NCBI RefSeq assembly: GCF_013410215.1
Contig: NZ_JACCFQ010000001.1
Span: 806,001-870,000, forward strand
Source of the DNA: Nesterenkonia sandarakina
Lineage (GTDB): Bacteria > Actinomycetota > Actinomycetes > Actinomycetales > Micrococcaceae
Length of the DNA stretch: 64,000 bases
Direction of reading: 5' to 3'
Shown piece by piece: positions 34,003 to 47,903 of the stretch. Each line of letters opens with the position of its first letter. Position 1 is the stretch's first letter. A model generated the notes under the pieces. The model was not told where the DNA came from, searched no databases, and saw nothing but the letters and a program-made list of their open reading frames with translations. The position numbers and the translations under genes are program-made.

Positions 34003-35301
34003 TTAAGTGAGGAAGTCGCCGATGAAGCCGCCGGGCTGACACCCCGGTGGCACGGCGAAGACGGCGCTGCCGATCGGGGTGGTCCACTCGTTGAGCCGGT
34101 CCCCTTCTGCGAGTCGCCTCTGGATGGGCAGGAACTGGCGCTCCACGTCGGCCTGATACGACATGAAGATCAGACCCGAGTCACTGATCCGCTCCCCGGA
34201 GGGTGGATCGTCGTAGTTGTAGCCGCGACGCAGGATCTGTTCCTCAGGTGCCATCTGGCGTGCCCGGCGGATATGGGCGAACTCTTCGATCACCGGGAAG
34301 CCCAGCGCGCTGGTGGCCTCGAAGTCCGGATCCTCGTGTTCCCGGGTGCCGGTCAGCGGTGCCCCGACGCTCAGATCGCGCCCTACCGAGGACTCCTTGC
34401 CGCTGCGGGCCAGCTCGTCCCACCCATCCATGTCCAGCCGGATCCGGCGGATGACCAGCGAGGTGCCACCCTCCACCCATGGGCTGAGCGAGCTGGAAAA
34501 CCCCTGCGGTGGGTGACCCCAGACGGCGAACTCGTTCCCGTCACCGCCCCGCTCGGGCTGCACGGTCTCATCAACCTGACCGAAGAGGTTGCGCATCGAA
34601 GAGCCTTCCTCCTGCGCCCCATGCGCCGAACGAAATCCGTCCTGGACCCAGCGCGGACGGGCCTCGCTGCGCGCGGACTTCAACATGATCCGGCGCGCAT
34701 GAGCCAGCGAGATCGGGTTGTTCCCACAGATCTGCAGCAGCAGATCACCACCGCACAGCGCCGGATCCAGATCATCGATCTCGAAGTCCGGCAGATCCTT
34801 CAGCCACGTCGGCGCGGCCGAGGGGTCCAACGCCTCGATGAGCCGAGGACCGAAGCCGAAGGTCACCGTCATGCTCGCGGGATGAGCGGCGAGCTCCGGC
34901 TCGGTGTCCGCCAGCGCCGGCCTCCCGGCGGTCAGCCGGGAGGCGTCGTCACTGAGCAGCCGCAGCAGCCGGGTGACGCTGTTCGGATCGGTGGGATCAC
35001 GCAAATCCAGGGCGACCAGCACGGCATGGGCCTGGGCGGGGGTTTCGATGCCCGCCTGCCGCGCGCCGTAGAACGGCACCGTCTCCGCACCGTAGCTGAT
35101 GCTGCGCACCTCGGGCTGCGTCTCACCCCAGCCCAGGGCGCTGCCCATGCTGGCCGCGGCGGCGACTCCTGCCCCGCCCACGCCGGCGCCGAGCAGGAGC
35201 CCTCGGCGGGAGAAGCCGCGCCGGGAGGTCCCTCGTTCGGGTCTGCCCCGTTGAGCTGGTCCCTGACCGGCGCCCGTCGGATCAGGCCGCTCAGTGCTCA
35301 T
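34003..35301 (-). CDS. Tat-exported DyP-type haem peroxidase
   Basis: A 432-aa protein. A twin-arginine signal SRRGLLLGAG (residues 31-40) indicates folded export. The proximal haem ligand is H343 (FAHIRRARQ) followed by ILRRGYNYD, as in DyP/EfeB enzymes. The distal motif, normally GxxDG, here reads G241-Q-V-D244-E245, keeping the Asp but replacing the last Gly by Glu. Its ATG overlaps the PCuAC stop by 11 bp. Secreted DyPs in this position act with copper chaperones in Streptomyces (DtpA); here the partners are PCuAC, CopC and PepSY proteins. Confidence 0.92.
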   Translation of the reverse strand: MSTERPDPTGAGQGPAQRGRPERGTSRRGFSRRGLLLGAGVGGAGVAAAASMGSALGWGETQPEVRSISYGAETVPFYGARQAGIETPAQAHAVLVALDLRDPTDPNSVTRLLRLLSDDASRLTAGRPALADTEPELAAHPASMTVTFGFGPRLIEALDPSAAPTWLKDLPDFEIDDLDPALCGGDLLLQICGNNPISLAHARRIMLKSARSEARPRWVQDGFRSAHGAQEEGSSMRNLFGQVDETVQPERGGDGNEFAVWGHPPQGFSSSLSPWVEGGTSLVIRRIRLDMDGWDELARSGKESSVGRDLSVGAPLTGTREHEDPDFEATSALGFPVIEEFAHIRRARQMAPEEQILRRGYNYDDPPSGERISDSGLIFMSYQADVERQFLPIQRRLAEGDRLNEWTTPIGSAVFAVPPGCQPGGFIGDFLT

Positions 35302-35950
35302 GATCATCGGAGTCGTGATCAGCCTCAGCGGCGTCATGGTCCATCTCGTCCATGTCTTCGCTATGGTCCATCTCGTCGCCGTGGTCCATGCCCTCCATCT
35401 CATCGCCGTGCTCGTAGGGCTCATCCTGCCCGCCGTCGTCGCGGACCATGGCTTCAATGGACTCCTGCGTGCCGTCCTCGAACTCCAGCGAGATCTCCAG
35501 CACCTCGCCGGGCAGCAGCTCCTGTTGCAGATCCATCAGCATCAGGTGGTCCCCTCCGGTCTCCAACTCCAAAGCGCCTGAGGCCGGGATGGTGAAGCCG
35601 CCGTCGATCTCCTGCATGACCTGCTGGCCGTCTTCCTCCACGATCTCGTGGAGCTCCGTGATGCCGGCGACCTCAGAACTCGCTGCGACGACCGTGAGGT
35701 CCTCATCGGTCAAGTTCTCGATGGTGCCGAAGACGCTGGTCATCTCAGAGTCCGTGGCGCGTGCCCAGACATCGTCTTGACTGCTCTGGATCAGAGCATT
35801 GTCGCCCGACTCAGCCTGGGGGGCCTCGGACTGAGTCGTCTCAGCCTCGGTTTCAGACTCTTCAGGCTCGGTTCCTGCGTCTGCGCAGGAGGTCAGCGTC
35901 AGCGTTGCGGCTGCCGCGAGGGCGGAGAGGGTCCAAGTGGTGTTCTTCAT
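35291..35950 (-). CDS. PCuAC-type copper chaperone lipoprotein
   Basis: A 219-aa lipoprotein. Signal peptide and lipobox LTSC lie in residues 1-22, followed by a Glu/Thr-rich linker. The copper(I) motif is H101-x10-M112-x22-H135-x-M137, close to the family consensus. The C-terminal 40 residues are an extra Asp/His/Met-rich tail with DHGDEMDHSEDMDEM, which would bind further metal. AAAGGA precedes the ATG. It delivers copper outside the membrane, probably to cytochrome oxidase or a secreted cuproenzyme, and is coupled to the DyP peroxidase. Confidence 0.92.
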   Translation of the reverse strand: MKNTTWTLSALAAAATLTLTSCADAGTEPEESETEAETTQSEAPQAESGDNALIQSSQDDVWARATDSEMTSVFGTIENLTDEDLTVVAASSEVAGITELHEIVEEDGQQVMQEIDGGFTIPASGALELETGGDHLMLMDLQQELLPGEVLEISLEFEDGTQESIEAMVRDDGGQDEPYEHGDEMEGMDHGDEMDHSEDMDEMDHDAAEADHDSDDHEH

Positions 35951-36160
35951 GACAGTGGTGTCCTTTCGGGCGTATGACCCTGAAGCCCGAGGGCGCACTG
36001 AGGCGCGACGGGCATAGGTGTGTTGGGTGAGGAGGCGATCCGCGGATGCGGCTCTGCTCAGCTGCACCTGGCCACAGAAGAGAGGCAGGCCAGCATTGAC
36101 CTGATCAGGGGCTGCGTGAGGGCAGCACCGGGACAGGCGTGGGAGCTCGACGTCGACGAG

Positions 36161-36225
36161 TCAGGCGCGGAGTTTCCGCCGCGACAGCTCAGGCGCGTTA
36201 GGTCAGGCGCGACGGGTCAGGCGCG
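36161..36225. repeat. Short repeat TCAGGCGCG, four copies
   Basis: TCAGGCGCG occurs at 36161, 36189, 36203 and 36217; the last three are spaced exactly 14 bp and the first is at twice that distance. The final copy contains the CopC stop codon. Confidence 0.8.
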
Positions 36226-36942
36226 GGGGTTCTTCCGCCCGCGCAGGACAGCGGTCGCGATCGCGGCGATGCCACCGACTACGACGATGCCACCGAGCAC
36301 GAACGCCCAGACCGGAAGCCCGGAATCCTGCTGGGTGTCAGCAGCGGCGTCACCCGCGACCGGCTCCTCCGCCTGATCAGGATCAGCGGCGCTGGAGTCG
36401 GCGGCGTCGTCGTCCTCTGCTGGCGCAGCGGATTCAGTCTCCGTCTCGGCCTCATCCTCGGTCTCCTCCGAAGCGGAGGCCGTGGGCTCTGGCGTCGGCT
36501 CAGGCTCCGGGGCGGTCTCCTCGACTTCGAAATCGAAGGACTGCTCCTCGGCGTGGCCATCGGAGTAGACCACTCGGTAGGCCACCGTGTAGTCGCCTCC
36601 GGGGAGATCCTCAGGGAACTCCGCTGACATGGTCGCACCTTCGACCTCGGTTTCGCCCTCCCAGTTCTCCCCGTCGGCATCGCTGACCTGGATGATGTTG
36701 GTGATTCCATCACCTGTGGTCAGGCCGCCTCCGGAGAACTCGAGGGTGATCTCCTCGGGGCTCTCCTGCAGGACCTCCCCCGCCTCCGGGGAGGAGGCGA
36801 TGAGCGAATCGTGCGCCCAGGCCGGAGCGGCCATCGTGGTGACCGCCAGGCCGAGCGCCGCAGTGGTGGAGAGCGCGGTGATGCGACCGGCGCGTCGGCG
36901 ACGCGTGGTGGGCGTACAGGGTGCAGTGGTGTTCGGTGACAT
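36217..36942 (-). CDS. CopC-domain copper-binding protein with C-terminal anchor
   Basis: A 241-aa protein. A signal peptide ends AWA, giving H44 as the first mature residue; with D128 and H130 (YSDGH) it forms the classical CopC copper(II) site. Residues 44-140 are the beta-barrel domain. Residues 145-205 are an acidic Pro/Glu/Ala linker and 210-232 a membrane helix, so the protein is tethered to the outer face. It is second in the minus-strand metal cluster, downstream of a His-rich membrane protein. Confidence 0.93.
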   Translation of the reverse strand: MSPNTTAPCTPTTRRRRAGRITALSTTAALGLAVTTMAAPAWAHDSLIASSPEAGEVLQESPEEITLEFSGGGLTTGDGITNIIQVSDADGENWEGETEVEGATMSAEFPEDLPGGDYTVAYRVVYSDGHAEEQSFDFEVEETAPEPEPTPEPTASASEETEDEAETETESAAPAEDDDAADSSAADPDQAEEPVAGDAAADTQQDSGLPVWAFVLGGIVVVGGIAAIATAVLRGRKNPRA

Positions 36943-37008: not shown

Positions 37009-37677
37009 TCAGCTCACGAGGACAGGCGGTCCACGCAGCGTCTGCGCGCCACCGCCGCACCAGAGATCCTGCAGGATCACGGTGGAGAAGGAGTCATGCG
37101 CGCGGATCGCCCGGGGCCCGGTCAGCGACACCGGGCGCAGGAACAGCAACAACACCGGGCGCAGCAGCAGCAGGGAGCCGAGCGCGTGCAGGATCAGCTC
37201 GCCGCGACGGATCACCGCGAAGGTGAAGATCCCGGCACAGACGTGGGCGAAGACCATCGGCGCGTCGGGCAGCACCTGAGCCACCGCACTTGTCTCCCCC
37301 GCTCCCGCGACGGTCACGACGTGATCATGGACCGCATGTCCGGTGTGCGCTGCGGCGTCGCTGTGCACGGTGGTGCTGGCTGACGAGCCGGTGGCCGGGA
37401 AGAGCGCAAACAGGCCGTGCAGCATGGCCTGGCTGAAGACGACGGCGACGCCGAGCCGGACGCGGCTGAGCCGGACGGCGGAGAGCGAGGCGCAGACGGG
37501 CAGGCTCACCGCGAGCGCCAGGACCAGCACGATCCAGTGCGGCATGTGATGCCCAGCAGCGGTGTGCGAGACGGCGGCGGACCCGATGGCCAGGCTCGCG
37601 GCCAGCAGTCCCCGGCCCAGCCGGGCGGGACCCGAGACGAGGCGCGGCGAAGGGGTGATGTCCGCGGCATTGACCAC
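37009..37677 (-). CDS. His-rich multi-helix membrane protein near CopC
   Basis: A 222-aa protein with about five hydrophobic segments. A loop between helices 3 and 4 is His-rich (TVHSDAAAHTGHAVHDH), as in copper-handling membrane proteins, and AHVCAGIFTFAVIRRGE follows. The start is GTG at 37677 with AAGGAGG 9 nt upstream. Its promoter overlaps a palindromic operator-like site (37711-37729). I do not recognise a named family; the position in front of CopC and PCuAC suggests copper homeostasis. Confidence 0.7.
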   Translation of the reverse strand: MVNAADITPSPRLVSGPARLGRGLLAASLAIGSAAVSHTAAGHHMPHWIVLVLALAVSLPVCASLSAVRLSRVRLGVAVVFSQAMLHGLFALFPATGSSASTTVHSDAAAHTGHAVHDHVVTVAGAGETSAVAQVLPDAPMVFAHVCAGIFTFAVIRRGELILHALGSLLLLRPVLLLFLRPVSLTGPRAIRAHDSFSTVILQDLWCGGGAQTLRGPPVLVS

Positions 37678-37708
37678 AGGAAACCCCCTCCTTCGGCTGA
37701 TGTCGGCG

Positions 37709-37729
37709 AGTCTACTACAGCGCGTAGAA
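37709..37729 (-). promoter_or_regulatory. CopY/BlaI-like operator overlapping a -10 box
   Basis: The plus-strand sequence TCTACTACAGCGCGTAGAA (37711-37729) is an imperfect palindrome with CTAC/GTAG arms. On the minus strand its right part forms a -10 TAGACT (37714-37709), 32 nt upstream of the GTG. An almost identical site lies at 51366-51384 in another promoter. Confidence 0.55.
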
Positions 37730-37808
37730 CCGTTGCCGGGTGGATCGCTGCTTGTCGGATCGGTTACGGGGCCCGCTCCGCTCATGGACGCCTCGCCCCG
37801 GTTCGTGT

Positions 37809-37881
37809 CATCGATTGTGCAATCTGTGCAGGTTCTCCGCCTCCTGGCGGATGAAACGGCGGTCGAATTGCACAATCGATG
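37809..37881. repeat. 73-bp palindromic repeat, copy 1
   Basis: The element begins CATCGATTGTGCAAT and ends with the reverse complement ATTGCACAATCGATG. The centre holds a second perfect hairpin, TCCGCC-TCCT-GGCGGA. It lies between divergent genes, 79 bp before the membrane protein at 37961. Copy 2, of exactly the same length, is at 38944-39016. Confidence 0.85.
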
Positions 37882-37960
37882 CAGGCAGGGCGGCTTCACC
37901 GGACTAAATCGCCCCGGAGTGGCTCGCGCGGATGACTCGGGGCGGGGACATACTGGCGCT

Positions 37961-38443
37961 ATGTCGAGCAGCCAGTCACCGAGGGCCCACCGCATCGGGT
38001 GGGCGAGTCGATTCCTGCGCATCACGGCTTGGGCGGCGTTCCTGGTTGCGGGGACGGCCGGGACCTGGTTCGGGACCCTCGCCCTGCTGCCCTGGGGGCT
38101 GGGCTACAGCTACGACACGGCCACTGGGATTCAGCACGGCCCTCCAGTGCCGTGGCAGTTCCTGGTCTGCGGCGTCCTGCTCCTGGGCATCGCGGTGGTG
38201 ACATCCTGGAACCGGTGCTGGCCTACGGTGCTGCTGCTGCCGCCGTCGCTGACTCTGGCCTGGTCCATGACCGCCAGCAGCGAGGACATCACCGGCCTCT
38301 GGCTGGTGGGGGCGGGCTTCATGGCGGTGGGCAGCACGCTGGGGACGCTGGTGGTCCTGGGCGTCACCAGATTCGCCCGGCCCGAGCACACACTGCCGAA
38401 GTCCCCCTTCGACGGCGGCACCCGCGTGTCGCAGCGTGACTGA
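37961..38443 (+). CDS. Tandem-duplicated membrane protein, copy A
   Basis: A 160-aa protein with four hydrophobic segments and no known domain. It shares its layout and long stretches with the next gene (VLLLPPSLTLAWSM, TASSEDITGLWLVGAG, GSTLGTLVVLGVT). A CATACT -10 lies 6 nt before the ATG, so the message is probably leaderless. It sits between the two 73-bp palindromic repeats. The Cys at the CW pair near residue 86 and the Trp-rich N-terminal helix are notable. Function unknown. Confidence 0.75.
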   Translation: MSSSQSPRAHRIGWASRFLRITAWAAFLVAGTAGTWFGTLALLPWGLGYSYDTATGIQHGPPVPWQFLVCGVLLLGIAVVTSWNRCWPTVLLLPPSLTLAWSMTASSEDITGLWLVGAGFMAVGSTLGTLVVLGVTRFARPEHTLPKSPFDGGTRVSQRD

Positions 38444-38467
38444 CTCTGCCTCGAACATACTGACGCG

Positions 38468-38941
38468 ATGACCACCCTTCCGCCGGCCGGACCTGCCGAC
38501 CGCAGCCACTCCTGGGGAAGCTCGCGCTTCCTGGCCTGGGCGCTCTTCGTGATCCTCGGGTCCACCGGCGCCTGGTTCGCGTGGATGGGCTGGGACCAGG
38601 AGTATCAGGTGGACCCGGTGACCGGACTGGCGCACGGCCCCTATGAGGCCTGGCAGGTGATCGGCTGCGGCATCACCCTGTTGGCGGTGGCCGTGCCGGC
38701 TTCTTGGGGGCGGCACTGGAAGTCCGTGCTGCTGCTGCCGCCGTCGTTCACTGTGGCCTGGAGTGTCACCGCGGCCAGTGAGGACAGCAGCGGACTGTGG
38801 CTCGTCGGTGCGATCATGGTGCTCATCGGCAGCAGCCTGGGCACAGCCGTGGTCCTCGGTGTCACCGGCGGTGTCGAGAGCCTCCTCGGGCGGATCCGGA
38901 GACCCGGAGCTCCGCGCGAGGTGGGCTCAGGTCACCCCTGA
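38468..38941 (+). CDS. Tandem-duplicated membrane protein, copy B
   Basis: A 157-aa paralogue of the preceding gene. Conserved blocks are VLLLPPSFTVAWSVTAASED, SSGLWLVGA and GSSLGTAVVLGVT. The CATACT -10 also lies 6 nt before its ATG, so even the promoter was duplicated. It has four hydrophobic segments. Only 24 bp separate the two genes and the second repeat copy starts 3 bp after this stop. Function unknown. Confidence 0.75.
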   Translation: MTTLPPAGPADRSHSWGSSRFLAWALFVILGSTGAWFAWMGWDQEYQVDPVTGLAHGPYEAWQVIGCGITLLAVAVPASWGRHWKSVLLLPPSFTVAWSVTAASEDSSGLWLVGAIMVLIGSSLGTAVVLGVTGGVESLLGRIRRPGAPREVGSGHP

Positions 38942-38943
38942 GG

Positions 38944-39016
38944 CATCGAGTGTGCAATTCGTGCAGGTTTTTCCTCGGGATCCGTGCTCTGCGGCGCTCG
39001 AATTGCACAATCGATG
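38944..39016. repeat. 73-bp palindromic repeat, copy 2
   Basis: It has the same length and outer arms as copy 1. By eye, 25 of the first 30 bases and 22 of the last 23 agree with copy 1, but only about 5 of the central 20 do. It lies between the convergent copy B and MFS genes, in the same orientation as copy 1. Confidence 0.85.
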
Positions 39017-39096
39017 GCGCGGGGGGCGGAGGCGGGACGGGTGGGATGCGCGGGGTGGGAGAGGCGGGACGGGTGAGCCTGCCGCCCCACGGCGGC

Positions 39097-41379
<2,283 letters not shown>

Positions 41380-46337: not shown

Positions 46338-47903
46338 CTAGCCCCGGCGCAGCACCGACTGCGCCGCGTGGAACCCGGCCATCCCATGGGCTCCACCACC
46401 GGGGGGCGCCGAGGCGGAGCAGAGGTAGACCGCCGGGGCCTGACCTGCCGCGGTCAGGACGGATGTCACACCTTCGGGGGCTCCCGGGGCCTCGTCCCCG
46501 GCATGGGGCACCCGATACGGATCCGGTCGCAGCGCAGGCCGGGCCAGGAACTGGCGCAGCGTGGGAGCCCCGGCGCTGATCGAGCCGTCCACGAGGTTGG
46601 GATTCCATTCCTGGAGGTCCGCCGGGCTCCACAACTTGCGGGCCTGCACGGTGCTTGCGAAACCAGGCGCCTGGGCCTCGATCTCGGCCTCGATCATCCC
46701 CGCGGCCCGGGTCACCGCGGCCCCGGAGAGCCCACCGGGGACATGGGCGTAGGCCCAGGCCACAGTGCGCTCATCGGGCGTCCTGGACGGGTCCGCGGCG
46801 CTGGGCTGGGTCAGCAGCACATACGGGCGGCCGGGCAGCGTGCCGCTCACGGCGGCGGCCTCTGCAGCCGCCATCTGCCGGGCGCCGCCGCCCAGATGCA
46901 CGGTGCTGGCCTGGCCCATCGCTTCATGCCGCCACGGGATGGGGCCTTCGAGCAGATAGTCGATCTTCACGATCCCGGTGCCGTAGTTCCATCGGCTCAG
47001 CGCACGGGAGTATCCGCGCGGCAGCCGGAGTCCGCCGAAGCTGCGCAGCTGACGCGGGGTCAGATCCAGCAGCACCGCATCCGGGACGTGCGCACCGGGG
47101 CCGGTGCTGCCCGGGATGCGCAGGTCCTCCAATCCGGAGACCCGGCGACCGGTGAGGAGCTTCCCGCCATGGGCTTCGAGCTCTGCCACCAGGGCCCGCA
47201 CCACCGCGCCGGAGCCTCCCTGGGCCACCGGCCAGCCGCTCGCCTGTGCCGCCGCTCCCAGCAGCAGCCCGAAGGCCGAGGTCAGGGGTCTGCGCAGATC
47301 AGTGGTCGCGTGCCCGGCGAGCCCGGCGAAGAGCGCCTTCGCCGGGGCTTCGGCGAAGAGCTGCTGCAGCCAGGTCGAGGGCCAGGCGCCGCGGGCTCCG
47401 ATCTGGACCAGGGACTGCATCCGGTGCGCTCTCGAATCGGACTGCAGGTTGCTCAACGGAGCGGTCACCGGGGTCATCCCCGCACGCAGCACCCGATCCC
47501 AGTCCCGCACCAGCGGGCCGAAGATCCTGGTCCACGCGGCACCGTCCGGGCCCAGCCCGGCGGCGGTGGCACTCACCGAGGAGTGCAGCAGGGCCGGGGG
47601 TGCGCCGTCGTCGAGCCCGTGCGCGGCCGGGAACCCAGCGTGGAGATACTTCAGGCCGTGGCGCTCGACCCCGGGAACCGGCGGCGGGCCGAAGGGGAAC
47701 ACACTGGCCCCGAGGTCACTGATCACTCCCTCCGCACCCGGGACCGCCGGGCCGAACTCTCCGGCGAAGAGCTCTGCCGAGCGCATCGCACCTCCAGGCG
47801 CGTCCGCGGCCTCATAGACGGTCACCTCCCAGCCGGCCTGGGCCAGCAGGCAGGCCGCGGTCAGCCCGTTCGGACCTGATCCGACGACGGCGGCTCGCTT
47901 CAT
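46338..47903 (-). CDS. Phytoene-desaturase-like FAD-dependent oxidoreductase
   Basis: A 521-aa flavoprotein. RAAVVGSGPNGLTAACLLAQ is the FAD-binding motif and YEAADAPGGAMRS the ribose-contacting and GG signature of the CrtI/amine-oxidase superfamily. The C-terminal part ends SASAPPGGGAHGMAGFHAAQ, the second FAD motif of this family. Actinobacterial members of this type are widespread but of unproven substrate; no carotenoid gene is nearby. Its ATG overlaps the stop of the upstream membrane-protein gene by 4 bp (ATGA), so the two are made together. Confidence 0.9.
   Translation of the reverse strand: MKRAAVVGSGPNGLTAACLLAQAGWEVTVYEAADAPGGAMRSAELFAGEFGPAVPGAEGVISDLGASVFPFGPPPVPGVERHGLKYLHAGFPAAHGLDDGAPPALLHSSVSATAAGLGPDGAAWTRIFGPLVRDWDRVLRAGMTPVTAPLSNLQSDSRAHRMQSLVQIGARGAWPSTWLQQLFAEAPAKALFAGLAGHATTDLRRPLTSAFGLLLGAAAQASGWPVAQGGSGAVVRALVAELEAHGGKLLTGRRVSGLEDLRIPGSTGPGAHVPDAVLLDLTPRQLRSFGGLRLPRGYSRALSRWNYGTGIVKIDYLLEGPIPWRHEAMGQASTVHLGGGARQMAAAEAAAVSGTLPGRPYVLLTQPSAADPSRTPDERTVAWAYAHVPGGLSGAAVTRAAGMIEAEIEAQAPGFASTVQARKLWSPADLQEWNPNLVDGSISAGAPTLRQFLARPALRPDPYRVPHAGDEAPGAPEGVTSVLTAAGQAPAVYLCSASAPPGGGAHGMAGFHAAQSVLRRG

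Follow-up and report, generated by a model that had tools for sequence, protein, structure and literature searches.

Paired-arm palindromes at gene ends in Nesterenkonia and other Micrococcales: a dispersed repeat family and its possible reading by a DNA-binding factor

Two 73-bp palindromes in the window, the stretch of 64,000 nucleotides analysed here from the genus Nesterenkonia (Micrococcaceae, Micrococcales), belong to a dispersed repeat family with conserved arms and a free centre, as a preliminary description of the same DNA had proposed, and further copies are present both in their own genome and in relatives. Each element of the family follows one plan, in which two inverted arms of about 24 bp each enclose a free centre of about 25 bp or about 15 bp. 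We tentatively interpret the two palindromes, at somewhat less than an even chance, as members of an old family of paired-arm DNA sites, passed on mostly by vertical descent, that occupies part of the Micrococcales and is read by a putative factor.

Both copies were recovered at the positions and with the length originally described (Table 1), their starts lying 1135 bp apart. A 15-mer taken from the arm matched the window at four places with up to three mismatches, all of them where foreseen, against 0.69 expected by chance, and four matches were reached in only 1 of 100 shuffles of the window. The full paired pattern matched nothing in the genome besides the two window copies, and the control yielded no match. 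Folded as DNA, the window palindromes beat all 200 shuffles, with z-scores of -6.0 to -7.8. The outer arms had been called near-identical, and they are indeed similar, but the left arm of copy 2 reads CATCGAGTGTGCAAT, with one differing base that renders this copy imperfect at one arm pair. Arm conservation is likewise real but extends beyond the 15 bp initially recognized, to the full arms given in Table 1, and the centre is free as described, although it measures about 22 bp rather than 20 bp. The inner parts, TGTGCAGGTT on the left and GGCG[GC]TCGAATT on the right, are common to both window copies and show hardly any mutual pairing.

Table 1. Coordinates of the palindromes, their arms and neighbouring genes in the window, and of related elements in this and other genomes
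Feature	Position	Strand	Description
Palindrome copy 1	window 37809..37881	+	73 bp; gap flanked by divergent genes
Copy 1 left arm	window 37809..37834	+	26 nt; 88% match to copy 2
Copy 1 right arm	window 37857..37881	+	25 nt; 96% match to copy 2
Gene 1	window 37961..38443	+	small paralogue without Pfam match; adjoins the element, outside it
Gene 2	window 38468..38941	+	paralogue of gene 1 without Pfam match; adjoins the element, outside it
Palindrome copy 2	window 38944..39016	+	73 bp; 2 bp 3' of the gene 2 stop; convergent genes
Copy 2 left arm	window 38944..38969	+	
Copy 2 right arm	window 38992..39016	+	
Copies in own genome (G000)	contig 1: 57241, 843809, 844944, 937072, 1132048, 1224233, 1836191, 1836341, 2384771		
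Double palindrome	L066:4192-4414		G000
Double palindrome	L084:3917-4134		G018
Double palindrome	L098:3936-4142		G021
Double palindrome	L289:2084-2270		G043
Double palindrome	L284:2173-2310		G592

In the genome of origin (G000), nine copies were accepted, each of 73 bp (Table 1). An arm search of this genome allowing up to three mismatches gave 22 matches, 16 of them within palindromes of exactly 73 bp. A model built from the nine copies (R1) returned 20 matches in the same genome at E 0.1; of these, 18 represent the nine copies, each matched on both strands, and the two that remain leave room for a tenth, weak copy. To the extent that the rough E-values allow, and with models biased to their seed sequences, R1 matches were obtained at E 0.1 in 21 of the 30 Nesterenkonia genomes, with weak ones in some, and at E 0.01 in 18 of 149 genomes of the family. 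A second model (R2) was derived from 110 matches that a search of 60 loci had yielded; at E 0.001, and with the same reservations, it matched 45 of the 396 genomes searched in the order. These 45 genomes span 24 of 109 genera and, by table reading, reach 12 families; for each of two families (f12 and f20), the count depends on a single genome whose match is weak or of odd length. The element collections used below comprise 113 stronger matches, 72 in a first and 41 in a second set, rather than a full census.

The elements fall into two length classes, with 100 of the 113 collected elements measuring 72-75 bp and 13 measuring 62-63 bp. An exact pattern with five arm bases free, which allowed any length from 58 to 78 bp, matched 21 of 395 family genomes, and the places listed (at least 51) were exclusively of 62 (3), 63 (2), 72 (8), 73 (32) or 74 bp (6). 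Order-wide, outside the genome of origin and among the matches listed, 52 of 84 full-length places measured 61-65 bp and 27 measured 71-76 bp, with none of the 84 at 66-70 bp. Off-class lengths among the matches listed across the order were 43, 58, 58, 59 and 94 bp, and two of the weakest best R1 matches in the genus measured 68 and 95 bp. Both classes can be found at the same gene end: the element at the end of the pyrophosphatase gene is 63 bp long in G002, 73 bp in G018, G021 and G022 and 74 bp in G028, and another shared gene end carries 72 bp in one genus and 62 bp in another. The step between the classes, about 10.5 bp, corresponds to one helical turn of DNA.

The arms of these elements covary. 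Both sides have changed in 10 of 24 arm pairs among the nine seed copies and in 22 of 24 arm pairs (523 of 2616 cells) of the 110-match alignment, which holds most elements on both strands, so that its cells are counted about twice. In this alignment, which was fitted to the paired structure, 91.6% of cells are paired, versus 71.2% in shuffles and 27-42% when slid. Exact symmetry can also come from template switching within a hairpin, without selection. At the arm tips, CATCGA starts 151 of the 226 arms of the 113 elements, and the palindrome does not continue into the flanks. The 10 bp flanking the 113 elements are C-rich and G-poor leading in from both sides, with a skew of 0.39 versus 0.08 in control 3' flanks.

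Members of the family lie mostly directly 3' of genes. Classified by gene context, with orthologous sites taken once per species and the counts therefore not independent, 139 elements comprise 65 convergent, 66 codirectional and 8 divergent cases. The first 109 of these, for which genes were called on either side, contribute 49, 52 and 8, respectively, and a further 30 elements from 15 genomes contribute 16, 14 and 0. Five of the eight divergent cases are window copy 1, whose location between divergent genes had been correctly noted at the outset, and its counterparts in G012, G018, G021 and G022; the remaining three are all in G024. The nearest facing stop codon lies within 60 bp in 79 of 101 cases, at a median of 23 bp, and in 23 of 30 cases of the further set. 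Because neighbouring genes were called by a purpose-written codon-usage script, gene starts and some small genes are uncertain. The genes themselves are ordinary, encoding GMC oxidoreductase, histidine phosphatase, PNPase, CstA, amino-acid permease, pyrophosphatase and others (30 scanned). Location at 3' ends is also typical of REP elements and of harmless insertions.

Close pairs of elements, 1.07-1.14 kb or 74-150 bp from start to start, recur in several genomes, and in the pairs inspected the members follow successive genes or share one gene gap. Double palindromes 10-77 bp apart were observed within single gene gaps (Table 1); the one in the genome of origin follows the PNPase gene, and the one in G018 lies beside the counterpart of that gene. 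At three loci (L071, L088 and L092), a called gene of 426-441 aa reaches about 30 bp into the palindrome, so that its stop codon and final residues may be encoded by the element.

A site after the stop codon, with covarying arms and a free apex, is also reminiscent of integron attC sites, which lie directly 3' of a gene and present triplet boxes, extra-helical bases, conserved ends, covarying boxes and a free tip. It is barely credible, however, that the palindromes are folded single-strand recombination sites working like attC: inspection by eye found no attC triplet boxes or extra-helical bases, and the copies are scattered among ordinary genes and kept at shared gene ends.

The short distance to stop codons and the many convergent sites would equally suit RNA hairpins at 3' ends, acting as two-way terminators or as mRNA-protecting stems, and the RNA folds of four elements are stable (-31 to -63 kcal/mol). 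Were the RNA hairpin the selected form, G-U mismatches would be expected to exceed A-C mismatches in the sense strand. No such excess was found: codirectional sites present 37 G-U and 43 A-C mismatches in the sense strand, with 37 and 35 at convergent and 8 and 7 at divergent sites. One site in the genome of origin does have a T-tract directly after the stem, but T-tracts (at least 5 T within 8 nt beyond the palindrome) occur at only 4 of 151 facing gene ends, a terminator scan of window positions 37600-39200 detected no terminator, and the two Rfam matches at 37500-39300 are both below the gathering cut-off. Furthermore, neither the spacing of the two length classes by one helical turn nor the genome-wide identity of arms is explained by an RNA loop. 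The missing G-U excess and the T-tracts at 4 of 151 ends make it seem that symmetry is kept in DNA, not RNA, and we consider the RNA hairpin reading unlikely. The preliminary description had judged a terminator role inadequate as an explanation of copy 1, and these results agree in that an ordinary intrinsic terminator does not account for the palindromes.

The genes flanked by the two palindromes, read in the preliminary description as putative membrane-protein genes, are paralogous, as had been recognized (54% over 129 aa), and the duplicated box reported upstream of both is present: ACATACTG stands shortly before each ATG, at window positions 37948-37963 and 38455-38470, ending 5 bases before the ATG. 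Orthologues of the gene pair carry CATAATGACGCTATG and similar sequences before the ATG, and these boxes upstream of the paralogues look like a putative conserved leaderless promoter. The neighbourhood of the pair includes CopC, PCuAC and DyP-peroxidase genes and an MFS transporter gene; genes for DyP peroxidase, the PCuAC copper chaperone and CopC lie beside the locus at window positions 34003-36942.

It had also been suggested that the palindromes serve to mobilise or amplify this gene pair. The state of the locus in relatives does not uphold this suggestion, and we regard it as very improbable that the two palindromes are the ends of a local unit of this kind or the outcome of a local segment duplication. 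They do bracket the pair, and element pairs with a spacing of about 1.07-1.14 kb are present at other places (in G012, G023, G024 and G149), but in those pairs the elements follow two successive genes. Moreover, G016 harbors both paralogues at the corresponding place with an intact element at neither position, G022 has one gene and the first element only, a single gene without an intact element is found in G011 and in G027, and the remaining seven copies in the genome of origin adjoin unrelated genes. G012, G018 and G021, in turn, keep elements at both places corresponding to the window copies. Based on the locus states in G016, in G012, G018 and G021, and in G022, gene duplication and the presence of each element look independent of each other, and the elements may have been lost in G016 after the gene duplication. 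A precise empty site was not found in G016, G011 or G027, where intergenic DNA is too diverged for a clean one to be demonstrable. In G011 and G027, a decayed copy is suspected by eye upstream of the gene. In G021 (locus L150), the first paralogue, upstream of gene 2, matches from residue 58 only and in two pieces, and hence looks like a pseudogene. As to a plasmid origin of the locus, window positions 37800-39030 have no match in 72,556 plasmid records.

Elements are retained at corresponding places across species. The GMC oxidoreductase/phosphatase gene end carries an element in nine species, and the copy beside the flavin oxidoreductase gene in the genome of origin has counterparts in the corresponding neighbourhood of other species; another copy lies beside the gene for a solute-binding protein, which has no clear orthologue. 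Dispersal must once have happened, because the copies share arms at unrelated places, and the present picture, as judged from the sequences compared, is one of long residence of the copies.

Arm sequence is uniform within several genomes and different between them. At arm positions 8-15, the genome of origin presents TGTGCAAT in 18 of 18 arms, covering all nine copies, G028 presents TCCCCGAT in 20 of 20 arms (10 of at least 13 copies), G116 TGCTCCAT in 10 of 10 arms (5 of 7 copies) and G022 TGGGCGAT in 9 of 10 arms. Concerted change is not universal, since G012, G018, G019 and G021 carry two main arm types at once; G003 carries several. Between G027 and G016, the element at the GMC oxidoreductase end differs at 8 + 8 arm positions and the centres agree at 0.76; between G022 and G028, the element at the pyrophosphatase end differs at 11 + 11 arm positions and the centres agree at 0.72. 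Non-orthologous centres agree at a mean of 0.41 (sd 0.10). With two rows with cut ends left out, 6 of the 22 orthologous pairs with at least seven changes per arm (5 sites) have centres above the 95% non-orthologous level, five of them from the GMC end and one from the pyrophosphatase end, and centre agreement over all 88 orthologous pairs averages 0.52 versus 0.41 for non-orthologous centres. Averaged over 124 orthologous pairs, the contrast is modest, with arms at 0.73 for orthologues versus 0.72 for copies within a genome. Given these weaker all-pair averages, concerted arm change is established for some genomes and at two sites, and not as a rule. Arm pairs altered on both sides between orthologues are still paired in 239 of 275 cases, and 138 arm pairs are altered on one side only.

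The main rival to an arm-binding factor is a REPIN- or MITE-like family once dispersed by a transposase, with copies now fixed and the enzyme lost or of an unrecognised kind, which we take as a serious possibility although on balance we doubt it. The arms would then be transposon ends, combining a conserved tip (mostly CATCGA) with a variable inner part read by a lineage-specific enzyme. The ends of IS elements have conserved tips and variable inner arms, and the arms described here resemble them in this respect. In addition, the presence of members at non-homologous gene ends implies copying at some time in the past, and a preference for certain targets could underlie the C-rich bias of the 10 bp flanking either side. 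The preliminary description had pointed to target-site duplications as a feature to look for, and none were found in 72 elements, whose flanks at k=2-9 agreed no more often than shuffled flank pairs, which argues against this account. So do the arm matches in the genome of origin with up to two mismatches, all of which lie in 73-bp pairs except one at 46763, and the persistence of copies at a corresponding gene end in up to nine species.

The search for a transposase also argues against it. The Y1 transposase family (PF01797) was detected in one of the 30 Nesterenkonia genomes and, among 18 genomes that carry elements in other genera of the family, likewise in one; it is missing from 46 of the 48 genomes searched, all within the family, and the E. 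coli control was positive. On these grounds, membership of the palindromes in RAYT/REPIN was rejected. The only Y1 transposases found are at locus L147 of G006 and locus L258 of G201. Separately, viral spread was considered and rejected: 30 viral-contig stretches match one loose exact pattern, and these were judged chance because only 10-14 of 24 arm positions pair in them, 9 being forced by the pattern.

The architecture is close to that of the 71-bp GI REPINs of Pseudomonas, as described in PMC3116915. In the available portions of three reports (PMC3116915, PMC3733652 and PMC6006769), the dispersal of GTAG-type palindromes is tied to RAYT transposases, and REPINs are characterized as extragenic, with two conserved inverted ends, a length-conserved spacer with compensatory changes and doublets counted in hundreds (PMC3116915). 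The elements reported here share with REPINs and BIMEs, as depicted in those portions, two inverted conserved ends, a length-conserved, hairpin-forming spacer and an extragenic location. They differ in that 29 of 30 genus genomes lack a RAYT, none of the 113 elements has GTAG or GTGG ends, copies number about ten rather than hundreds of doublets, and members occupy corresponding gene ends across species in length classes one helical turn apart. CGTC-tagged REPs, according to the excerpts of PMC3733652, are palindromic, occur mostly as inverted dimers and have no dedicated transposase; they consist of 20-40 bp units with 8-9 bp stems, 4-5 nt loops and CGTC at one end, and are listed there from five phyla, with Actinobacteria not among these and the word absent from the main text, although M. 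tuberculosis and D. radiodurans are noted there as carrying REP-like families without a tag. The likeness to this class, within what the excerpts describe, resides in inverted palindromes without a dedicated transposase, whereas the present elements have a stem of about 24 bp, mostly CATCGA tips and a centre of 15 or 25 bp. MITEs such as RUP, NEMIS and ERIC, which the same excerpts name (PMC3733652), are similar in being short, with terminal inverted repeats of 15-30 bp and no coding capacity. Here, in contrast, there is no target duplication, the centres are not common to most copies and no autonomous partner was seen among the close arm matches in the genome of origin. In the literature searched, which left subscription journals largely outside its coverage, no description of this palindrome family was found, and the text matches to arm strings, among those listed, were judged from their titles to be primers.

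The lineage-specific arms suggest that a putative DNA-binding factor reads the palindromes. A lineage-specific repeat in inverted pairs after genes also recalls the dialects of DNA-uptake sequences, which are about 9-12 bp long, occur in hundreds to thousands of copies and often form inverted pairs after genes; the present family differs in its roughly ten copies, its 24-bp arms and its fixed spacing. An arm-binding factor is the simplest account of the family, with the REPIN-like relic as its main rival and a terminator or mRNA stem less likely, in that the length classes, the symmetric change, the genome-wide arm type and the free centre would all follow from it. Such a sequence-specific factor would bind each arm as double-stranded DNA, and two bound subunits would meet across the free centre of about 15 or about 25 bp, spacings that, being about one helical turn apart, would keep the subunits on a common face of the DNA. 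Any drift in the specificity of the factor would be tracked by the copies of a genome, and the free centre would stay with its site. A weak point of this model is centre retention under arm change, which comes from few sites, five of the six cases being at one gene end. The loci yielded no candidate home gene of a partner protein; apart from one cluster of ABC-transporter ATPases and one of MFS transporters, no protein cluster in them recurs in at least three genera.

Judged by position, the most likely role of such sites is that of a boundary at gene ends, where they may act in both directions as a transcription roadblock or as a topological anchor between convergent units. A bolder reading, conceivable but rather doubtful at present, is that the family represents an unrecognised two-subunit DNA-binding system in the Micrococcales, working without a transposase through palindromes of about 63 or about 73 bp at gene ends, with arms that change in concert like a dialect and centres kept by each site, and setting a two-way boundary to transcription or supercoiling. 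The palindrome family described here has matches in 12 families of one order, with no RAYT in 46 of the 48 genomes searched, and combines helical-turn length classes, arms that are uniform within several genomes and stationary sites. Through a putative arm-binding protein, it would become directly testable how extragenic palindromes in bacteria are kept alike.
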